Shown here: positions 2,917 to 19,351 of the stretch, piece after piece | How positions within the stretch are numbered: position 1 is the stretch's first letter | Layout: the number at the start of each line of letters is the position of its first letter | From: Lysobacterales bacterium | Lineage (GTDB): Bacteria > Pseudomonadota > Gammaproteobacteria > Xanthomonadales > SZUA-36 | Length of the DNA stretch: 43,602 nt | Reading direction: 5' to 3' | Assembly (NCBI GenBank): GCA_013042835.1 | Contig: JABDPJ010000181.1 | Location: forward strand, 1-43,602 | The notes under the pieces: model-generated | Databases searched by the model: none | What the model was told of the DNA's origin: nothing | What the model saw: the letters and a program-made list of their open reading frames with translations, nothing else | Made by a program: the position numbers and the translations under genes

Positions 2917-3571
2917 GCAATGGATTGTGGCGATTTTAGTCGCCGGTATATTTTCCCTCGCAGCCTCCCCGCTGGCTGCAGATACTTACCGCTGGAAAGA
3001 CAAGGACGGCAAAGTCCATTACGGTGCTGCAGTACCGGCTGAGTATGCCGACCAGCCCTACGATATCCTCAATGATGCCGGTATGGTCATCGACCGGGTC
3101 GAAGACACCTCCGTACCGATTGAAGTCATCGCCAAGGAAAAAATAAAGGAGAAGCGGAAACCGCTGATTTCGGAAGAAGAACGACGGATCCAGTCTGATC
3201 GTCTGCTGGTCATCCAGTACCGCTCAGAGGAAGACATTAGCACGGCCCTTGAACTGCAGATCGCACAGCTGGGTTATGATTTTAAGATTACTAACCAGTC
3301 ATACGACAGCACCAACAAGGCCATCCGGGACCAGATCCGGCAGGCTGCCGACCAGCAAAGGGCAAACCTGCCCATCAGTGAAGAACAGCAAAAAGCCATT
3401 GCTCAACTCTATGCCCGGCGTGCCCATGATGAACAAAAGAGGGCCGCCATGAAACGCCGGGAAAACCGCATTCGTGAGCGCTTTCAGAAAGATCTCGAGC
3501 GCTACCGTTTCCTGACTTCAGGTAACGAAGCAAGCGAAGAAGCCGGCGAAGAGCAGGTGGATCAGGGCTAA
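2906..3571 (+). CDS. DUF4124-domain secreted protein
   Basis: A 221-residue protein with an N-terminal signal peptide (hydrophobic core IVAILVAGIFSLAASPLAA, likely cleavage before DTYRW). It is followed by the short DUF4124 motif, TYRWKDKDGKVHYGAAVP, a pattern common in proteobacterial periplasmic proteins of unknown function. The rest is charged and predicted helical or coiled coil (about residues 85-205, rich in K, E, R and Q), ending in an acidic tail. The start at 2906 lies inside the last codons of pyrE and is preceded by a purine-rich AAGG; an upstream in-frame start would remove the signal peptide from the N terminus. It is probably co-transcribed with pyrE. Function is unknown. Confidence 0.8.
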   Translation: MESKQWIVAILVAGIFSLAASPLAADTYRWKDKDGKVHYGAAVPAEYADQPYDILNDAGMVIDRVEDTSVPIEVIAKEKIKEKRKPLISEEERRIQSDRLLVIQYRSEEDISTALELQIAQLGYDFKITNQSYDSTNKAIRDQIRQAADQQRANLPISEEQQKAIAQLYARRAHDEQKRAAMKRRENRIRERFQKDLERYRFLTSGNEASEEAGEEQVDQG

Positions 3572-4501: not shown

Positions 4502-4783
4502 ATGAACGCAGACTCCGAGCATCCGATCCCGCTGAGGCAACACGTCGAGAAAACCATTAGCCGATACCTTAAAGACATGGGCAACACCGCCCCGGAGAAC
4601 CTCTACCAGATGCTGCTGGCCGAGGTCGAGCCGCCGCTGATTGGAGAAGTTTTGCGCTACACGGGTGGCAACCAGTCGCGGGCTGCCAGCATGCTCGGCA
4701 TTACCCGTAATACCCTGCGCACCAAGATGCAACGTTATTCCATAACCGCGCAACCCTCGCGGATTACCCGCTTGCGACGATGA
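4502..4783 (+). CDS. fis: DNA-binding protein Fis
   Basis: Fis is a small homodimeric nucleoid protein that bends DNA and regulates rRNA and tRNA promoters, recombination and replication origins. The 93-residue product has the family core YQMLLAEVEPPLIGEVLRYTGGNQSRAA (split by the usual helix positions) and the C-terminal helix-turn-helix SMLGITRNTLRTKMQRY. After the point where E. coli Fis ends, the protein continues for about a dozen residues with several arginines (QPSRITRLRR), an unusual basic tail that might add DNA contacts. It is followed by purH and purD, as in Pseudomonas, but the usual partner dusB is not upstream. Confidence 0.95.
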   Translation: MNADSEHPIPLRQHVEKTISRYLKDMGNTAPENLYQMLLAEVEPPLIGEVLRYTGGNQSRAASMLGITRNTLRTKMQRYSITAQPSRITRLRR

Positions 4784-7743: not shown

Positions 7744-9930
7744 ATGGATGTATCCCACCTGCTCGATGAATTGAATGAGGCGCAACGCGAGGCGGTCACC
7801 ACGCGCTCTCAACATACGCTGGTACTCGCGGGCGCGGGCAGCGGCAAGACCCGCGTCCTGATACACCGCCTGGCCTGGTTGATCCAGGTGGAGCACGTTT
7901 CACCGCTCAGCATCCTGGCAGTCACATTTACCAACAAAGCGGCCGGGGAAATGCGTGAACGCGCCCAGGACCTGTTGCAGGTTTCCGCGCGCTCCATGTG
8001 GATCGGCACGTTTCATGGCATCGCGCATCGCATTTTACGCATGCATTGGGAAGAGGCCGGGCTGCCGGAAAACTTCCAGATCCTGGATTCCGACGACCAG
8101 CACCGCATCTTGCGCCGCCTGATCAAGGAGGAAGGACTGGATGAGGCGCAGTGGCCGGCCCGGCAGGCACAATGGTATATCAATGCCCGCAAGGATGAAG
8201 GCCAACGGCCACAGTCCATCGAGGATATGAACAATCCCATGACCGCGCAGTGGGTGCGGATTTACGACACCTACCAGGCTTATTGTGACCGGGCCGGACT
8301 GGTGGATTTTGCAGAATTGCTGTTGCGCGCCCACGAACTATGGCTCAACGACCCAACGCTGCTGGACCACTATCAGCGCCGCCTGAGCCACTTGCTGGTG
8401 GATGAATTCCAGGACACCAACTCGATTCAATATGCCTGGATTCGCATGCTGGCCGGTGCTGACGGCAGTGTCCTGGTGGTGGGTGATGACGACCAGTCGA
8501 TCTATGGCTGGCGCGGAGCACAGGTGGAAAACGTCAGGCACTTCAGCCGCGATTTCGCAGGCGTGCAGACCATCAAACTGGAACAGAATTACCGTTCCAC
8601 CGGCACCATACTCGAAGCCGCCAACGCCGTGATCGCGAACAACGAAGAGCGCATGGGCAAGAAGCTCTGGACCGCCGATGACAAGGGCGCGCCCATCATG
8701 CTTTATTCGGCTTTCAATGAACAGGACGAAGCGCGTTTTGTCGTCGAACAGGTTGAGCAATGGCTGGCCAAGGGCCGCCGCGCCGACGAAGTGGCCATCG
8801 TCTATCGCACCACCGCGCAATCGAGACTGTTCGAGGAATACCTGTTGCGGGCATCCATTGCCTACCGCGTTTACGGCGGGCAGCGCTTTTTTGAACGGGC
8901 TGAAATCAGGGACGCACTGGCTTACCTGCGGCTTATCCAGAATCCGAATGACGATGCGGCCATGGAACGCGTGATCAATACCCCGGCCCGTGGCATCGGC
9001 CAAAAAACGCTTTCGATTCTGCGCCTGCAGGCGCGGGAGAGCAGTCTGCCACTGTGGCAGGCGGCCCAGGAATGCGCGCGGCAGAACCTGTTGCCTGCGA
9101 GGGCGCTTGGCGCTGTGAACGGGTTTGTACAGCTGATTTCCGCGATGCGCGAACGCATGCAGAACTGGACCCTGGGCAACCAGGTACAGGGCCTGATCGA
9201 GGAAAGCCAACTGGTCAGCCACTATGAAAAAGAGCCGACCGAGAAGATGGAATCCAGGGTCGAGAACCTGCGTGAGCTGGTTAACGCGGCGGAGGCTTTC
9301 GTCATACCGGCTGAAGACGAAGACGCAGGCATGACCGATTTACAGTCCTTCCTGAGTCATGCGGCACTGGAAGCCGGTGAAACACAAGGTGAAGCCTGGG
9401 ATGATTGCGTACAACTGATGACCTTGCATTCGGCCAAGGGACTGGAGTTTCCCATGGTGTTCATCGTCGGCATGGAAGATGGCCTGTTTCCGCATCAGCG
9501 CAGTGTTACCGAGGCCGGTGGCAGACTCGAGGAAGAACGCCGCCTGTGCTATGTAGGCATCACGCGGGCGCGCGAACACCTGTGCATCAGCCATGCCGAG
9601 GTCAGGCGTATGTTCGGCTCCGAGAGCCACTGCCGGCCATCGCGTTTTCTGGACGAGATTCCATCAGGGCTCATCGAGGAAATACGGCCGAGAATGCAGG
9701 TCCAGCGGCCCTGGTCCAGCCCCAAGCTGCCGGAGTATCGAAAATCCAGCCTGGGTAGCGACCAGGACTGGCCATTTCGTCTCGGAGAATCAGTCAGCCA
9801 CAAGAAGTTTGGCATCGGCACGGTCATCAGTTTTGAAGGCTCAGGTGAACACGCCCGTGTGCAAGTGAATTTCAACCGGGCCGGCGCCAAGTGGCTGGTG
9901 CTGGCTTATGCGAACCTCACCAGTACATGA
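7744..9930 (+). CDS. uvrD: DNA helicase II
   Basis: A 728-residue superfamily 1A 3'-5' helicase used in nucleotide-excision and mismatch repair and in clearing RecA filaments. It carries the Walker A motif GAGSGKT (30-36), the TFTNKAA motif, DEFQDTN (about 220), GDDDQSIYGWRGA (about 247), the QNYRST motif, LMTLHSAKGLEFP and the final GITRARE. Length matches E. coli UvrD (720). The C terminus ends in the PcrA/UvrD Tudor-like segment (VSHKKFGIGTV) that contacts RNA polymerase in known homologues. The gene begins two bases after purD, and its TGA overlaps the ATG of the next gene. Confidence 0.97.
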   Translation: MDVSHLLDELNEAQREAVTTRSQHTLVLAGAGSGKTRVLIHRLAWLIQVEHVSPLSILAVTFTNKAAGEMRERAQDLLQVSARSMWIGTFHGIAHRILRMHWEEAGLPENFQILDSDDQHRILRRLIKEEGLDEAQWPARQAQWYINARKDEGQRPQSIEDMNNPMTAQWVRIYDTYQAYCDRAGLVDFAELLLRAHELWLNDPTLLDHYQRRLSHLLVDEFQDTNSIQYAWIRMLAGADGSVLVVGDDDQSIYGWRGAQVENVRHFSRDFAGVQTIKLEQNYRSTGTILEAANAVIANNEERMGKKLWTADDKGAPIMLYSAFNEQDEARFVVEQVEQWLAKGRRADEVAIVYRTTAQSRLFEEYLLRASIAYRVYGGQRFFERAEIRDALAYLRLIQNPNDDAAMERVINTPARGIGQKTLSILRLQARESSLPLWQAAQECARQNLLPARALGAVNGFVQLISAMRERMQNWTLGNQVQGLIEESQLVSHYEKEPTEKMESRVENLRELVNAAEAFVIPAEDEDAGMTDLQSFLSHAALEAGETQGEAWDDCVQLMTLHSAKGLEFPMVFIVGMEDGLFPHQRSVTEAGGRLEEERRLCYVGITRAREHLCISHAEVRRMFGSESHCRPSRFLDEIPSGLIEEIRPRMQVQRPWSSPKLPEYRKSSLGSDQDWPFRLGESVSHKKFGIGTVISFEGSGEHARVQVNFNRAGAKWLVLAYANLTST

Positions 9931-15753: not shown

Positions 15754-17115
15754 TCACGAGTAGATGACTGACGGTAACCAGGTTGCCATTTGCGGCCAGA
15801 GCGACAACAGGCCCAGCATCAGTAGCTGAATGGCGATAAACGGAACCACGCCGCGGTAGATGGAAGTCGTCGCGATTTCCGGTGGTGCAACCCCGCGCAG
15901 GTAGAACAGGGAAAACCCGAAAGGCGGGGTCAGAAAAGATGTCTGCAGATTGATGGCGATCATGACGGCCAGCCACACCGGGTCGATACCCATGGCCAAA
16001 AGCACGGGGCCGACAATCGGGATCACGACGTAGGTGATTTCGATAAAATCGAGGATAAACCCGAGCAGGAACAACGCCAGCATGACGATCAGCAGCGCCC
16101 CGACCTGTCCACCCGGTAAAGCCGACAGCAGGGACTGGACATATTCATCGCCGCCATAGCCCCGGAACACCAGGCTGAACAAGGATGCGCCAATCAGGAT
16201 CATGAAGACCATCGCGCTGACCCGCGCGGACTGGTAAACAACTGCTCGCAGGGTTTCAACTGACAGCTGCTTCTGTATCAAGGCCAGCAGCATGGCGCCG
16301 GTCGCACCTATGGCTGCGGCCTCGGTAGGCGTCGCGAGACCCACAAGGATGGAGCCGAGCACTGCCACGATGAGTAACATCGGGCCGGCCAGCAAGCCCA
16401 GCAACGCCAGCAATGAAACCCTGGTGTCCGGTTCCTGCTCCGCCGCCGGCATTTTTGAAGGTTTAAAGAATGCCACCGCAACCAGGTAGAGCATGTACAG
16501 TCCGACCAGCATCAAACCTGGCAGCAGCGCCCCCGCAAACAATTCACCGACCGAAACGGTTTCCGGGCTGAAAACACCCATGCTCAGCTGCGCCTGCTGA
16601 TAGGCGTTGGACAGAACATCTGCCAGCAGGATAAGCACGATGGATGGCGGAACGATCTGGCCCAGCGTGCCCGCTGCACAAATGCTGCCGGTGGCGATGG
16701 ATGGATCATATTTGTTTTTGAGCATGCTCGGCAGCGACAACAGGCCCATAGTGACAACGGTTGCGCCGACAATACCGGTACTGGCCGCCATCAATGCACC
16801 CACCAGCATCACAGCGAGGCCCAGCCCGCCGGGCACCCTTCGCATCAGGGCAGCCAGGGCCTGTAGCAACTGGTCTGCAAGTTTTGAACGTTCCAGCATC
16901 ACACCCATGAAAACGAAAACCGGCACAGCAATCAGCGTCTCATTGGTCATGATGCCGAAAATGCGGCTGGGAAATGCGCCCAGAAAAGCGGGGTCGAAGG
17001 TGCCCGTTAAAATTCCAAGCAGGGCGAAAATCAGGGCGACGCCCGCCAGTGTGAACGCCACAGGAAACCCCGCCAGCAGCGCCATACCGACGGCAATAAA
17101 CAGGCTGACAGACAT
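15754..17115 (-). CDS. dctM: TRAP transporter large permease (DctM family)
   Basis: A 453-residue polytopic membrane protein with about twelve helices. It has the DctM signatures FPVAFTLAG near the N terminus, NETLIAVPVFVFMG, GIVGATVVTMGLLSLP, GTLGQIVPPSIVLIL, ATPTEAAAIGA and LLFILGFILDF-like (here FLLGFILDFIEITYV). The family forms the translocation channel of TRAP transporters for organic acids. I prefer the ATG at 17115, preceded by GGGCGG, over a TTG at 17127. A DctM normally needs the small membrane subunit DctQ, usually encoded directly upstream; here that position is non-coding. A fused DctQ is also not visible at the N terminus. Confidence 0.93.
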   Translation of the reverse strand: MSVSLFIAVGMALLAGFPVAFTLAGVALIFALLGILTGTFDPAFLGAFPSRIFGIMTNETLIAVPVFVFMGVMLERSKLADQLLQALAALMRRVPGGLGLAVMLVGALMAASTGIVGATVVTMGLLSLPSMLKNKYDPSIATGSICAAGTLGQIVPPSIVLILLADVLSNAYQQAQLSMGVFSPETVSVGELFAGALLPGLMLVGLYMLYLVAVAFFKPSKMPAAEQEPDTRVSLLALLGLLAGPMLLIVAVLGSILVGLATPTEAAAIGATGAMLLALIQKQLSVETLRAVVYQSARVSAMVFMILIGASLFSLVFRGYGGDEYVQSLLSALPGGQVGALLIVMLALFLLGFILDFIEITYVVIPIVGPVLLAMGIDPVWLAVMIAINLQTSFLTPPFGFSLFYLRGVAPPEIATTSIYRGVVPFIAIQLLMLGLLSLWPQMATWLPSVIYS

Positions 17116-17590
17116 CAGCCCGCCCAATTCAGCGCTCCAGGACTTTGAATTCGTAAGGTCTGACCAACGATTGTTGGCCAGTGCCTGTTGGGGAACATAC
17201 TTTTATGCCCGGAAAACGCATAAATAGGGTTCGTGCATTTGCGCACCCCGTGACCACAGCTGTTTTTATGCACAGTCAGACGTGCTTTACAAAAAAACAT
17301 AGGCTTAATGCACTTGTTGTTACAAAACTATCCAAAGAGTATTTTAATTTATTGTATTTTATATATTTTTATGTTTTCAATAAATCCAAGGAGGACCGCC
17401 CAATCTTAACATGACCTTAAGCGACCATACCCCATATAACGTTGTTCACAGAGTTATCCACAGGCTGTTATAAGTCATTGATGGTGAATTGCTCCGTGCG
17501 GCATCCAGCCGTTTTCAGTGATTGTTCAAGTGGTTTACAATAGAGCGCTTTCGAGTTGCCCCAAAAGCAACCGGTCACGGGATATTTTTC
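17116..17590. other. Long non-coding region with DnaA boxes and an AT-rich block (origin-like)
   Basis: These 475 bases between divergent dctM and argS contain no credible gene. Two sequences fit the DnaA-box consensus TTATNCACA exactly: TTATGCACA at 17266-17274 and TTATCCACA at 17454-17462. A one-mismatch copy, TTGTTCACA at 17442-17450, lies three bases before the second. Between them is a block (17338-17387) with about 12% GC, in sharp contrast to the surrounding genes, resembling a DNA-unwinding element. The flank CAGAG-TTATCCACAG is the same as that of box R4 in E. coli oriC as I remember it. This may be a replication origin or a DnaA-controlled promoter region. Confidence 0.5.
17512..17541 (+). 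promoter_or_regulatory. Candidate argS promoter
   Basis: TTTTCA (17512-17517) and TACAAT (17536-17541) are separated by 18 bases. The -10 is good and the -35 moderate. Transcription would start near 17548, about 43 bases before the argS start codon. Confidence 0.4.
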
Positions 17591-19351
17591 TTGAAAGAAC
17601 ACATTGAAGAGTTACTGAATCAGGCCCTGCTTCACCTGATACGCGATGGCGTGCTGAATGAGGATTGCGATATTGAGCCGCAACTGGAACGCACGCGCAC
17701 GTCAGAGCACGGCGAGTTTGCCTCGAACATTGCCATGGTGCTTGCCAAGCGTGCCGGCATGCCGCCGCGTGAGATTGCACAACTCATCATTGATAAACTA
17801 CCGCCATCGCGCCAGGTGAAACACGCTGAAATCGCCGGACCGGGATTCATCAATTTCTATCTGAATCACGTCGCCCTGACCACCGTGGTCAAGGACATCC
17901 TGTACCAGGGCGACAATTATGGCCACCGGCCGCCGAATCCGGACCACGAGGTCACCGTGGAGTTTGTTTCGGCCAACCCGACCGGGCCACTGCACGTCGG
18001 ACATGGCCGCGGCGCCGCCTATGGCGCGAGCCTGGCCAGTATCCTGGCGGCGGCAGGCTATAAGGTGCAGCGTGAGTACTATGTCAACGACAACGGCCGG
18101 CAAATGGATATCCTGGCCGTCAGCGTCTGGCTGCGTTACCTGGAATTGTGCGGTGAGCAATTACGTTTCCCCGACAACGGTTACCAGGGTGACTACATCT
18201 ACAACATCGCCCGCGAAGTGCGCAATGAAATCGGTGATAAATTCCGCTTCAAAGAGAATGACGTTTTCGACGGTCTTCCACCAGATGAGTCTCAAGGCGG
18301 AGACCGCGAGAACCACATCGACGAGTTGATTTCCCGCGCGGAAGAACTTCTTGGCCACGAAGGTTATCTCGCCTTTTTTGAAACATCGGTGAACAGCATC
18401 CTTACCGACATCCAGAAAGACCTGGCCGGTTTTGGGGTCGAGTTCGACCACTGGTTTTCCGAAAAAGAACTCGAAGACAGCGGCGCAATCGCCCACGCAA
18501 TTGAACGCCTGGAAGACAATGGGCACCTGTATAAAAAGGATGGCGCAACCTGGTTTCGGGCCTCGGCCCTTGGCGATGAAAAGGATCGCGTCGTCATCCG
18601 CGAGAATGGCCGAACCACGTATTTTGCCTCGGACATCGCCTATTTCCTGAACAAGATGGAACGTGGTTTTGAAAAGGCCATCTATGTCTTTGGCGCTGAT
18701 CACCACGGCTACATTGCGCGTTTGCGGGCCGCTGCCACCGGCCTGGGCGAGGATCCTGACCGCCTGGAAATCCTGTTGGTGCAATTTGCCGTGCTATACC
18801 GTGCCGGCAAAAAGGTCCAGATGTCCACGCGCTCCGGTGAATTTATAACGTTGCGGGAATTGCGTGAAGAAGTTGGCAGCGATGCCGCACGCTTCTTTTA
18901 CGTTATGCGCTCGCATGAACAGCACCTCGATTTTGACCTCGACCTGGCCAAGTCACGCAGCAATGAAAACCCGGTGTATTACATCCAGTATGCCCATGCC
19001 CGAATCTGTAGCGTATTCAGAAACCTGGAGCAGATGAACGAGACCCACAACGAGGCCATTGGAGAGGCAGCGCTTAAACTGTTAACGGAGCCCAACGAAA
19101 CCCGTTTGTTGCGTGAGCTGAGCCGGTATCCCGAGGTCATTGAGTCGGCCGCGCGTTTGCGTGCGCCGCACCAACTCGCCCACTACCTGCAAGCACTGGC
19201 CACGGAGTTCCATGCTTATTACAACTCCCAACAGTTCCTTGTCGATGATGAAAATATCCGCAACGTGCGCCTGAACCTGATACTTGCCGTGAAGATCGTT
19301 CTCGCCAATGGCCTGGAGTTGCTTGGAATCTCGGCGCCGGAGGCCATGTAA
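17591..19351 (+). CDS. argS: Arginyl-tRNA synthetase (TTG start)
   Basis: ArgRS charges tRNA-Arg with arginine. With a TTG start at 17591 the protein begins MKEHIEELLNQALLHLI and has 586 residues, matching the N terminus and length of Pseudomonas ArgRS; a CGGGA sequence lies at a suitable distance upstream. A longer reading from 17522 would add 23 unconserved residues. The class I HIGH-type motif is HVGHGRG (135 onward), and the KMSKS loop is degenerate (MSTR, about 411), as is usual for this enzyme. AFVSANPTGPLHVGH-like sequence (EFVSANPTGPLHV), REYYVNDNGRQM and the C-terminal DALR-type anticodon domain are present. The SPOR gene follows one base after its stop codon, as in Pseudomonas. Confidence 0.96.
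   Translation: MKEHIEELLNQALLHLIRDGVLNEDCDIEPQLERTRTSEHGEFASNIAMVLAKRAGMPPREIAQLIIDKLPPSRQVKHAEIAGPGFINFYLNHVALTTVVKDILYQGDNYGHRPPNPDHEVTVEFVSANPTGPLHVGHGRGAAYGASLASILAAAGYKVQREYYVNDNGRQMDILAVSVWLRYLELCGEQLRFPDNGYQGDYIYNIAREVRNEIGDKFRFKENDVFDGLPPDESQGGDRENHIDELISRAEELLGHEGYLAFFETSVNSILTDIQKDLAGFGVEFDHWFSEKELEDSGAIAHAIERLEDNGHLYKKDGATWFRASALGDEKDRVVIRENGRTTYFASDIAYFLNKMERGFEKAIYVFGADHHGYIARLRAAATGLGEDPDRLEILLVQFAVLYRAGKKVQMSTRSGEFITLRELREEVGSDAARFFYVMRSHEQHLDFDLDLAKSRSNENPVYYIQYAHARICSVFRNLEQMNETHNEAIGEAALKLLTEPNETRLLRELSRYPEVIESAARLRAPHQLAHYLQALATEFHAYYNSQQFLVDDENIRNVRLNLILAVKIVLANGLELLGISAPEAM

Follow-up and report, generated by a model that had tools for sequence, protein, structure and literature searches.

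In this report, we address the question of what a group of DnaA boxes is doing upstream of argS, the arginyl-tRNA synthetase gene, in a contig of 43,602 nucleotides from a Lysobacterales bacterium (the window, i.e., the whole stretch of DNA that was analysed). The original prediction saw in these boxes, and in the AT-rich stretch that lies between them, the basic parts of a replication origin (oriC), with a DnaA-regulated argS promoter or a DnaA-titrating site as the alternative. We will argue that this region is probably a control element working through DnaA and the integration host factor (IHF), derived from a DnaA-reactivating sequence (DARS) and now holding or inactivating DnaA in the manner of the datA locus, and not an origin. 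Initiation in Escherichia coli is timed by DARS and datA, and in the literature that we found they have been little examined outside of the enteric bacteria.

The DARS core upstream of argS and its missing box

In E. coli K-12, the DnaA boxes of DARS1 (bioD-uvrB) are found at positions 2108 (+), 2122 (-) and 2134 (-) of the locus that we extracted, and those of DARS2 at 3136 (+), 3150 (-) and 3162 (-) of its own, which gives for both of them offsets of 14 and 12 and one inverted box. This agrees with a passage of a review that describes the spacing as identical in DARS1 and DARS2, and box I as opposite to boxes II and III (PMC5742627). The argS loci of Wenzhouxiangella-type genomes carry the complete DARS core, with offsets of 12 and 14 and the last box inverted. 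The full core is also found at argS in 5 of the 39 genomes of the window's family (G014 and G032 to G035) and in one genome of another family (G061). Within the family, two other genera thus share it at this site with the Wenzhouxiangella-type genomes. We consider the DARS ancestry of the argS element to be well supported.

The window itself has kept part of this core. Its box III starts 12 bp before box II, which is the offset seen in DARS1, in DARS2 and in the weak/strong pair of datA, and the complete three-box core (III-12-II-14-I, with box I inverted) is not found there, box I being absent. Indeed, at the position where box I is expected (Table 1), the window mismatches 6 of the 8 specified positions, against 0 to 1 mismatches in 24 other rows of the comparison. 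This comparison scored 71 rows, that is, 70 loci plus the window (L011, L014, L050, L063 and L069 were excluded, and L269 was excluded from the ArgS tree). Boxes 1, III and II are present without box I in 22 of these rows, the full core is seen in another 24, and the remaining 25 show neither arrangement; the last group includes two degenerate versions (L029 and L031), and the 24 include two loci in which the core lies elsewhere, in a different layout and without box 1 (L073 and L080). In the ArgS tree, a single change separates the 22 rows that are devoid of box I from the 24 full-core rows, on a branch with a support of 99.6 in the Shimodaira-Hasegawa-like approximate likelihood ratio test (SH-aLRT). 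Judging from these sequences, the lineage of the window has apparently lost the inverted box I, and only once. We read the change as a loss because the full core is present in other families and in E. coli.

The boxes of the window were located correctly in the original prediction, which had described two exact boxes and, three bases ahead of the second one, a box with one mismatch. Only two exact matches to TTATNCACA occur in the whole window, box 1 and box II, both on the forward strand. Their number alone is not significant, since 0.54 are expected and 14 of 100 shuffles reach two or more. In the genome from which the window comes, 51 exact boxes are found, against 36 matches for the reversed control pattern. 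What is beyond chance is the clustering of the boxes, together with their conservation: six pairs of neighbouring exact boxes lie less than 200 bp apart in this genome, while a random placement of the 51 boxes predicts 0.16. One of the six is the pair at argS, two are on contig C227, one on C249 and two on C288.

Fixed spacing, putative IHF sites and a second copy

Of the 80 relative loci, we compared the DNA ahead of argS in 75, leaving out those in which argS or its upstream DNA is cut, or which have a late start (L030, L032, L037, L083 and L085). Close and middling relatives show the same boxes at unchanged distances, and most loci with an ArgS identity of 62% or less lack them. The comparison with close relatives that the original prediction had proposed shows the boxes to be kept: a distance of 185 to 189 bp separates box 1 from box II in 28 of the 30 family loci (mean 187.3, standard deviation 0.9), with box 1 standing 187-188 bp upstream in most relatives. 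The distance from box II to the start of argS ranges in the family loci from 87 to 240 bp (mean 143, standard deviation 41). The two exceptions are L094, which is cut by a contig end and whose genome (G025) carries the two-box signature on another contig, and L116, which is without an exact box 1. This two-box signature is present in 36 of the 39 family genomes and in 104 of the 398 genomes of the order. All nine positions of box II are invariant in the 28 family loci, in part because the choice of loci relied on this very box, and the information content is high in the boxes, against 0.17 to 0.25 bits at the median position around them. This selection by the boxes accounts in part for the high values of the box columns, and the informative part of the conservation is the spacing and the low background rather than the columns themselves.

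The very AT-rich stretch of 50 bp that had been noticed between the boxes is also confirmed, as the 50-mers starting at 17334 to 17336 and at 17340, with 10% GC, are the lowest of the window. Between -110 and -80 of box II, the mean GC of the 28 family loci drops to 0.19. Two putative IHF sites are found between box 1 and box III, and matches with at most two mismatches recur at fixed positions in the relatives. At -160 of box II, 27 such matches are counted in the 28 family loci, where a 4-bp bin holds 1.05 on average, and at -112/-108 there are 20 inverted ones, against a mean of 0.74 per bin. In 18 Wenzhouxiangella-type loci, the same two positions hold 15 and 20 matches (mean of 0.52 per bin for the second). 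With a threshold of at most one mismatch to WATCARNNNNTTR, 20 of the 28 loci have a match close to box 1, and 2 of the 28 have one in a control stretch; the window's own copy near box 1, with its two mismatches, is outside those 20. Because a conserved IHF-like site lies inside it, we tentatively take the AT-rich stretch for a bending site rather than for an unwinding element.

The same set of boxes exists a second time in the genome of the window, where an intact DARS core occupies C227:8701-8730 and is accompanied by a box 1 at 8894 (L001 and L175; total span 8701-8902). It lies between a small open reading frame (ORF) and sbcB, near recR, ybaB and dnaX (names given by reading the translations), it has an IHF consensus and a match for Fis, and it is conserved in the family. 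In the 30 second-copy loci of the family, sbcB is found within 3 kb in 29 and the small ORF in 29. The match to a strict Fis pattern is exact in 25 of the 30, with one mismatch in the rest, and it sits at a fixed place, 67 bp ahead of box II; a passage of a published study (PMC4245941) gives GnnYAnnnnnTRnnC as a Fis consensus. Two cores are likewise found in all five Wenzhouxiangella-type genomes tested, one at argS and the other beside the small ORF and sbcB, the latter with a Fis match in two of the five. The argS copy and the recR-sbcB copy share their box set and differ by the Fis site, which is in the second copy, and by the placement of the IHF-like positions, at -160 and about -110 of box II in the former and at about -222, -172 and -100 in the latter; we do not claim that one arose as a duplicate of the other.

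Table 1. Features of the argS region and other genes mentioned in the text (window coordinates).
Feature	Position	Strand	Remarks
Box 1, DnaA box TTATGCACA	17266..17274	+	exact match
IHF-like site AAACATAGGCTTA	17295..17307	+	2 mismatches to WATCAANNNNTTA; 29 bp past the start of box 1
AT-rich stretch	17334..17390	.	10% GC over the first 50 bp
Second IHF-like site, inverted, TAATTTATTGTAT	17345..17357	-	2 mismatches to TAANNNNTTGATW; within the AT-rich stretch
Box III, TTGTTCACA	17442..17450	+	one mismatch; ends 3 bp ahead of box II
Box II, TTATCCACA	17454..17462	+	exact match
Expected position of inverted DARS box I	17468..17476	-	absent in the window (TTATAAGTC)
argS, arginyl-tRNA synthetase	17591..19351	+	TTG start at 17591; 586 aa; constant neighbour
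DctM subunit, TRAP transporter	15754..17118	-	PF06808, E=2.4e-74; divergent neighbour; start at about 17118-17127
Fis-family DNA-binding protein	4502..4783	+	PF02954, E=4.9e-16

Origin, promoter or DnaA control

As in the oriC of Gammaproteobacteria, DnaA boxes stand here beside an AT-rich stretch with an IHF-like site, and the arrangement of boxes and 10% GC stretch is conserved in the family, so that one could imagine an oriC or a second origin beside argS, where DnaA would fill the boxes and open the AT-rich DNA. We have rejected this candidate, whose probability we hold to be very slight, as there is no switch of replication polarity at the site in the relatives G016, G021 and G071. Polarity was judged in relatives; the genome of the window is split over 329 contigs, and the window shows a flat to negative GC skew over its whole length. 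In G016, where argS is at 297 kb, all 10-kb bins between 80 and 360 kb have a negative skew, and the FtsK-orienting polar sequences (KOPS, given here as forward/reverse) are 5/27 on the left of the site and 0/6 on its right. In G021, the skew is negative on both sides and the KOPS are 2/7 on the left and 14/18 on the right. The single contig of G071 (3,675,202 bases) has dnaA at its start; the element ends about 109 kb before it, the KOPS are 3/17 on the left of the element and 3/16 between the element and dnaA, and the minimum of the cumulative skew (within the 375 kb read) falls about 20 kb past dnaA. The skew check that had been proposed with the origin, once run in relatives, shows no change of sign at argS. 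Twenty stretches sampled in G071 have forward-rich KOPS between 0.3 and 1.9 Mb and reverse-rich ones from 2.0 Mb onwards. In the genome of the window, the argS site adjoins neither dnaA (contig C288) nor mnmG (C234), the usual neighbours of an origin in this class, a DnaA-box cluster separate from it was found around dnaA, with four exact boxes, two on each side of the gene, and the supposed unwinding stretch holds the inverted IHF-like site. The argument from polarity is weakened by the first 180 kb on the right of dnaA in G071, where the KOPS are 14/20 and hence not forward-rich, and by the faint change of skew seen around dnaA in G021:C3 and G016:C5; these two genomes show no clean skew minimum at dnaA either. 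The skew of the family genomes is weak, and the cumulative minimum of G021:C4 lies near 300 kb, in an island-like stretch.

A promoter of argS controlled by DnaA, with the boxes repressing or activating the gene, would fit with the position of the element upstream of argS in the argS-type loci and with a weak promoter-like match (9/12) at 17512-17541, between box II and argS. The promoter scan, however, gave 2 matches where 1.2 are expected, and the distance to argS changes from 87 to 240 bp while the spacing of the boxes varies by 4 bp. Furthermore, the small ORF and sbcB both have their 3' ends turned towards the second copy, which carries the same box set and has no promoter to control. We therefore regard promoter control as improbable. 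The idea of a DnaA-titrating site came closer to what we find, namely an element of the DARS/datA kind that controls DnaA and is conserved.

Compared with DARS1 and DARS2, the argS element has boxes III and II in the same direction with an offset of 12, an inverted box I with an offset of 14 in its orthologous sites and in the recR-sbcB copy, an intergenic location away from oriC, and IHF-like sites on the box III side. It differs from them by the absence of box I in the window, by an additional box 1, conserved and at about 187 bp from box II, by its address (argS instead of uvrB or mutH) and by the Fis site, which was found in none of the 28 family loci at argS at one mismatch or less, with a pattern that is too strict to show absence because E. 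coli DARS2 itself is unmatched even at two mismatches. With datA, the element shares the weak/strong pair with an offset of 12 (TTGTAAACA-GAG-TTATCCACA in datA, TTGTTCACA-GAG-TTATCCACA here) and, at a distance of 160-190 bp, a further strong box of the same orientation, with an IHF site (here IHF-like) in between. A passage of the review cited above states that the essential boxes of datA share one direction and have the IHF site between them (PMC5742627), and at argS boxes 1, III and II are all on the forward strand with the predicted IHF sites in between. As to the position of datA near oriC, the distance between the argS element and dnaA was measured in G071, where it is about 109 kb, about 3% of the chromosome. 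The order, however, is box7-box2-IHF-box3 in datA and single box, IHF-like sites, then weak/strong pair at argS, which has two IHF-like sites where datA has one IHF site. It is because of this difference in box order that we do not file the argS element as a datA.

The boxes, their spacing, the ancestry of the site, the loss of box I and the lack of a polarity switch we take as shown, whereas protein binding, looping and present activity are what we infer from this layout. The ancestral argS site would have combined DARS boxes III, II and inverted I with the upstream box 1 and two IHF-like sites between boxes 1 and III, and the lineage of the window would have lost box I once while keeping box 1, box III, box II and the IHF-like sites at fixed spacing. 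IHF may bend the AT-rich spacer and thereby bring the DnaA of box 1 into contact with that of boxes III and II, and the array of boxes in the same direction may hold DnaA head to tail. Devoid of the I/II pair, the element would more probably titrate ATP-DnaA or promote its hydrolysis, as datA does. Having no head-to-head I/II pair, it should therefore no longer recharge ADP-DnaA, and in the same genome this task would fall to the recR-sbcB DARS. As for the present activity, a datA-like inactivation is the possibility to which we lean, tentatively; titration comes close behind, a residual reactivation is unlikely, and some other activity is less likely still. A still working DARS, which would recharge ADP-DnaA without box I, perhaps by means of box 1 brought in by IHF, would account for the positions of box III, box II, box 1 and the IHF-like sites, which match those of the full-core relatives, but box I is gone in 22 rows, and we consider this explanation unlikely.

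Several points weigh against a DARS-derived element of datA-like action. The choice between loss and gain of box I rests on outgroups and not on a rooted test. The element is altogether lacking in 25 of the 71 rows, mostly those with lower ArgS identity, so it is not essential everywhere. The box order of datA is not reproduced, the weak/strong pair being on the other side, both putative IHF sites of the window carry two mismatches each, and a mode of action like that of DARS2 is unsupported at argS because of the missing Fis matches. That the change from DARS to datA-like action took place at argS once in the family, through the loss of a single inverted box, while the paralogous-looking recR-sbcB DARS kept recharging, is a scenario that we offer as a doubtful one. 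In any case, this lineage has lost an essential box and kept the rest of the element, which makes a natural before/after pair that bears on whether the orientation of the boxes alone decides between recharging and inactivating DnaA.

Other cores and gene surroundings

The DARS core extends far beyond argS. With at most one mismatch, it is found in 388 of the 398 genomes of the order, and with at most two in 92 of the 114 genomes sampled from the class, with no control matches among those listed in either case. Sequence similarity of DARS across many proteobacteria has already been stated in the literature. The addresses priA, argS and recR-sbcB are new for the DARS core, all in one order; our literature search found no paper on a DnaA element at any of the three, many subscription papers being outside its coverage, so that absence is unproven. 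In the loci from other families of the order, priA adjoins the core in 14 of 20 (L258, L260-L268, L270, L272, L274 and L276), and 8 of the 10 ORFs tested beside cores were named PriA. Marinicella-like genomes (L271, L275 and L277; G070 and G114) have two or three cores each, one near polA and another beside a hemY-like gene, and G177:C224 has two DARS cores 3.8 kb apart, at 2519 and 6342.

The window is contig C176 of an assembly of 3.43 Mb (G000; 89% complete). By its ArgS, the named relatives are metagenome-assembled genomes filed under Lysobacterales, Xanthomonadales or Gammaproteobacteria, Wenzhouxiangella being more distant, and argS served as the anchor to locate the orthologous sites. 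The original prediction was right in describing the region as gene-free, between the divergent argS and DctM genes, and in placing a fis gene within the window (Table 1). In G071, DctM is not kept as the divergent neighbour, and the ORF found in its place is read, from its sequence, as a gamma-class carbonic anhydrase. In the genome of the window, DnaA is encoded together with another PF00308 protein, a shorter one that we read as Hda, and with four HU/IHF-family proteins, two of which are read as IhfA and IhfB from their sequence and neighbours.

Other arrangements of DnaA boxes and DnaA-like proteins were encountered. At G000:C249:3989-4016 (L003), two TTATACACA boxes in divergent orientation stand 19 bp apart ahead of an ORF resembling a PIN-domain toxin (name by reading). 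In G331:C16:212688-213458, TTATCCACA pairs repeat about every 181 bp in a tandem array on both strands. Finally, G089:C1 has nine extra Bac_DnaA matches, seven of which are identical in score, in profile range and in their frame of 247 aa; these are probably IstB-like helpers of insertion sequences.
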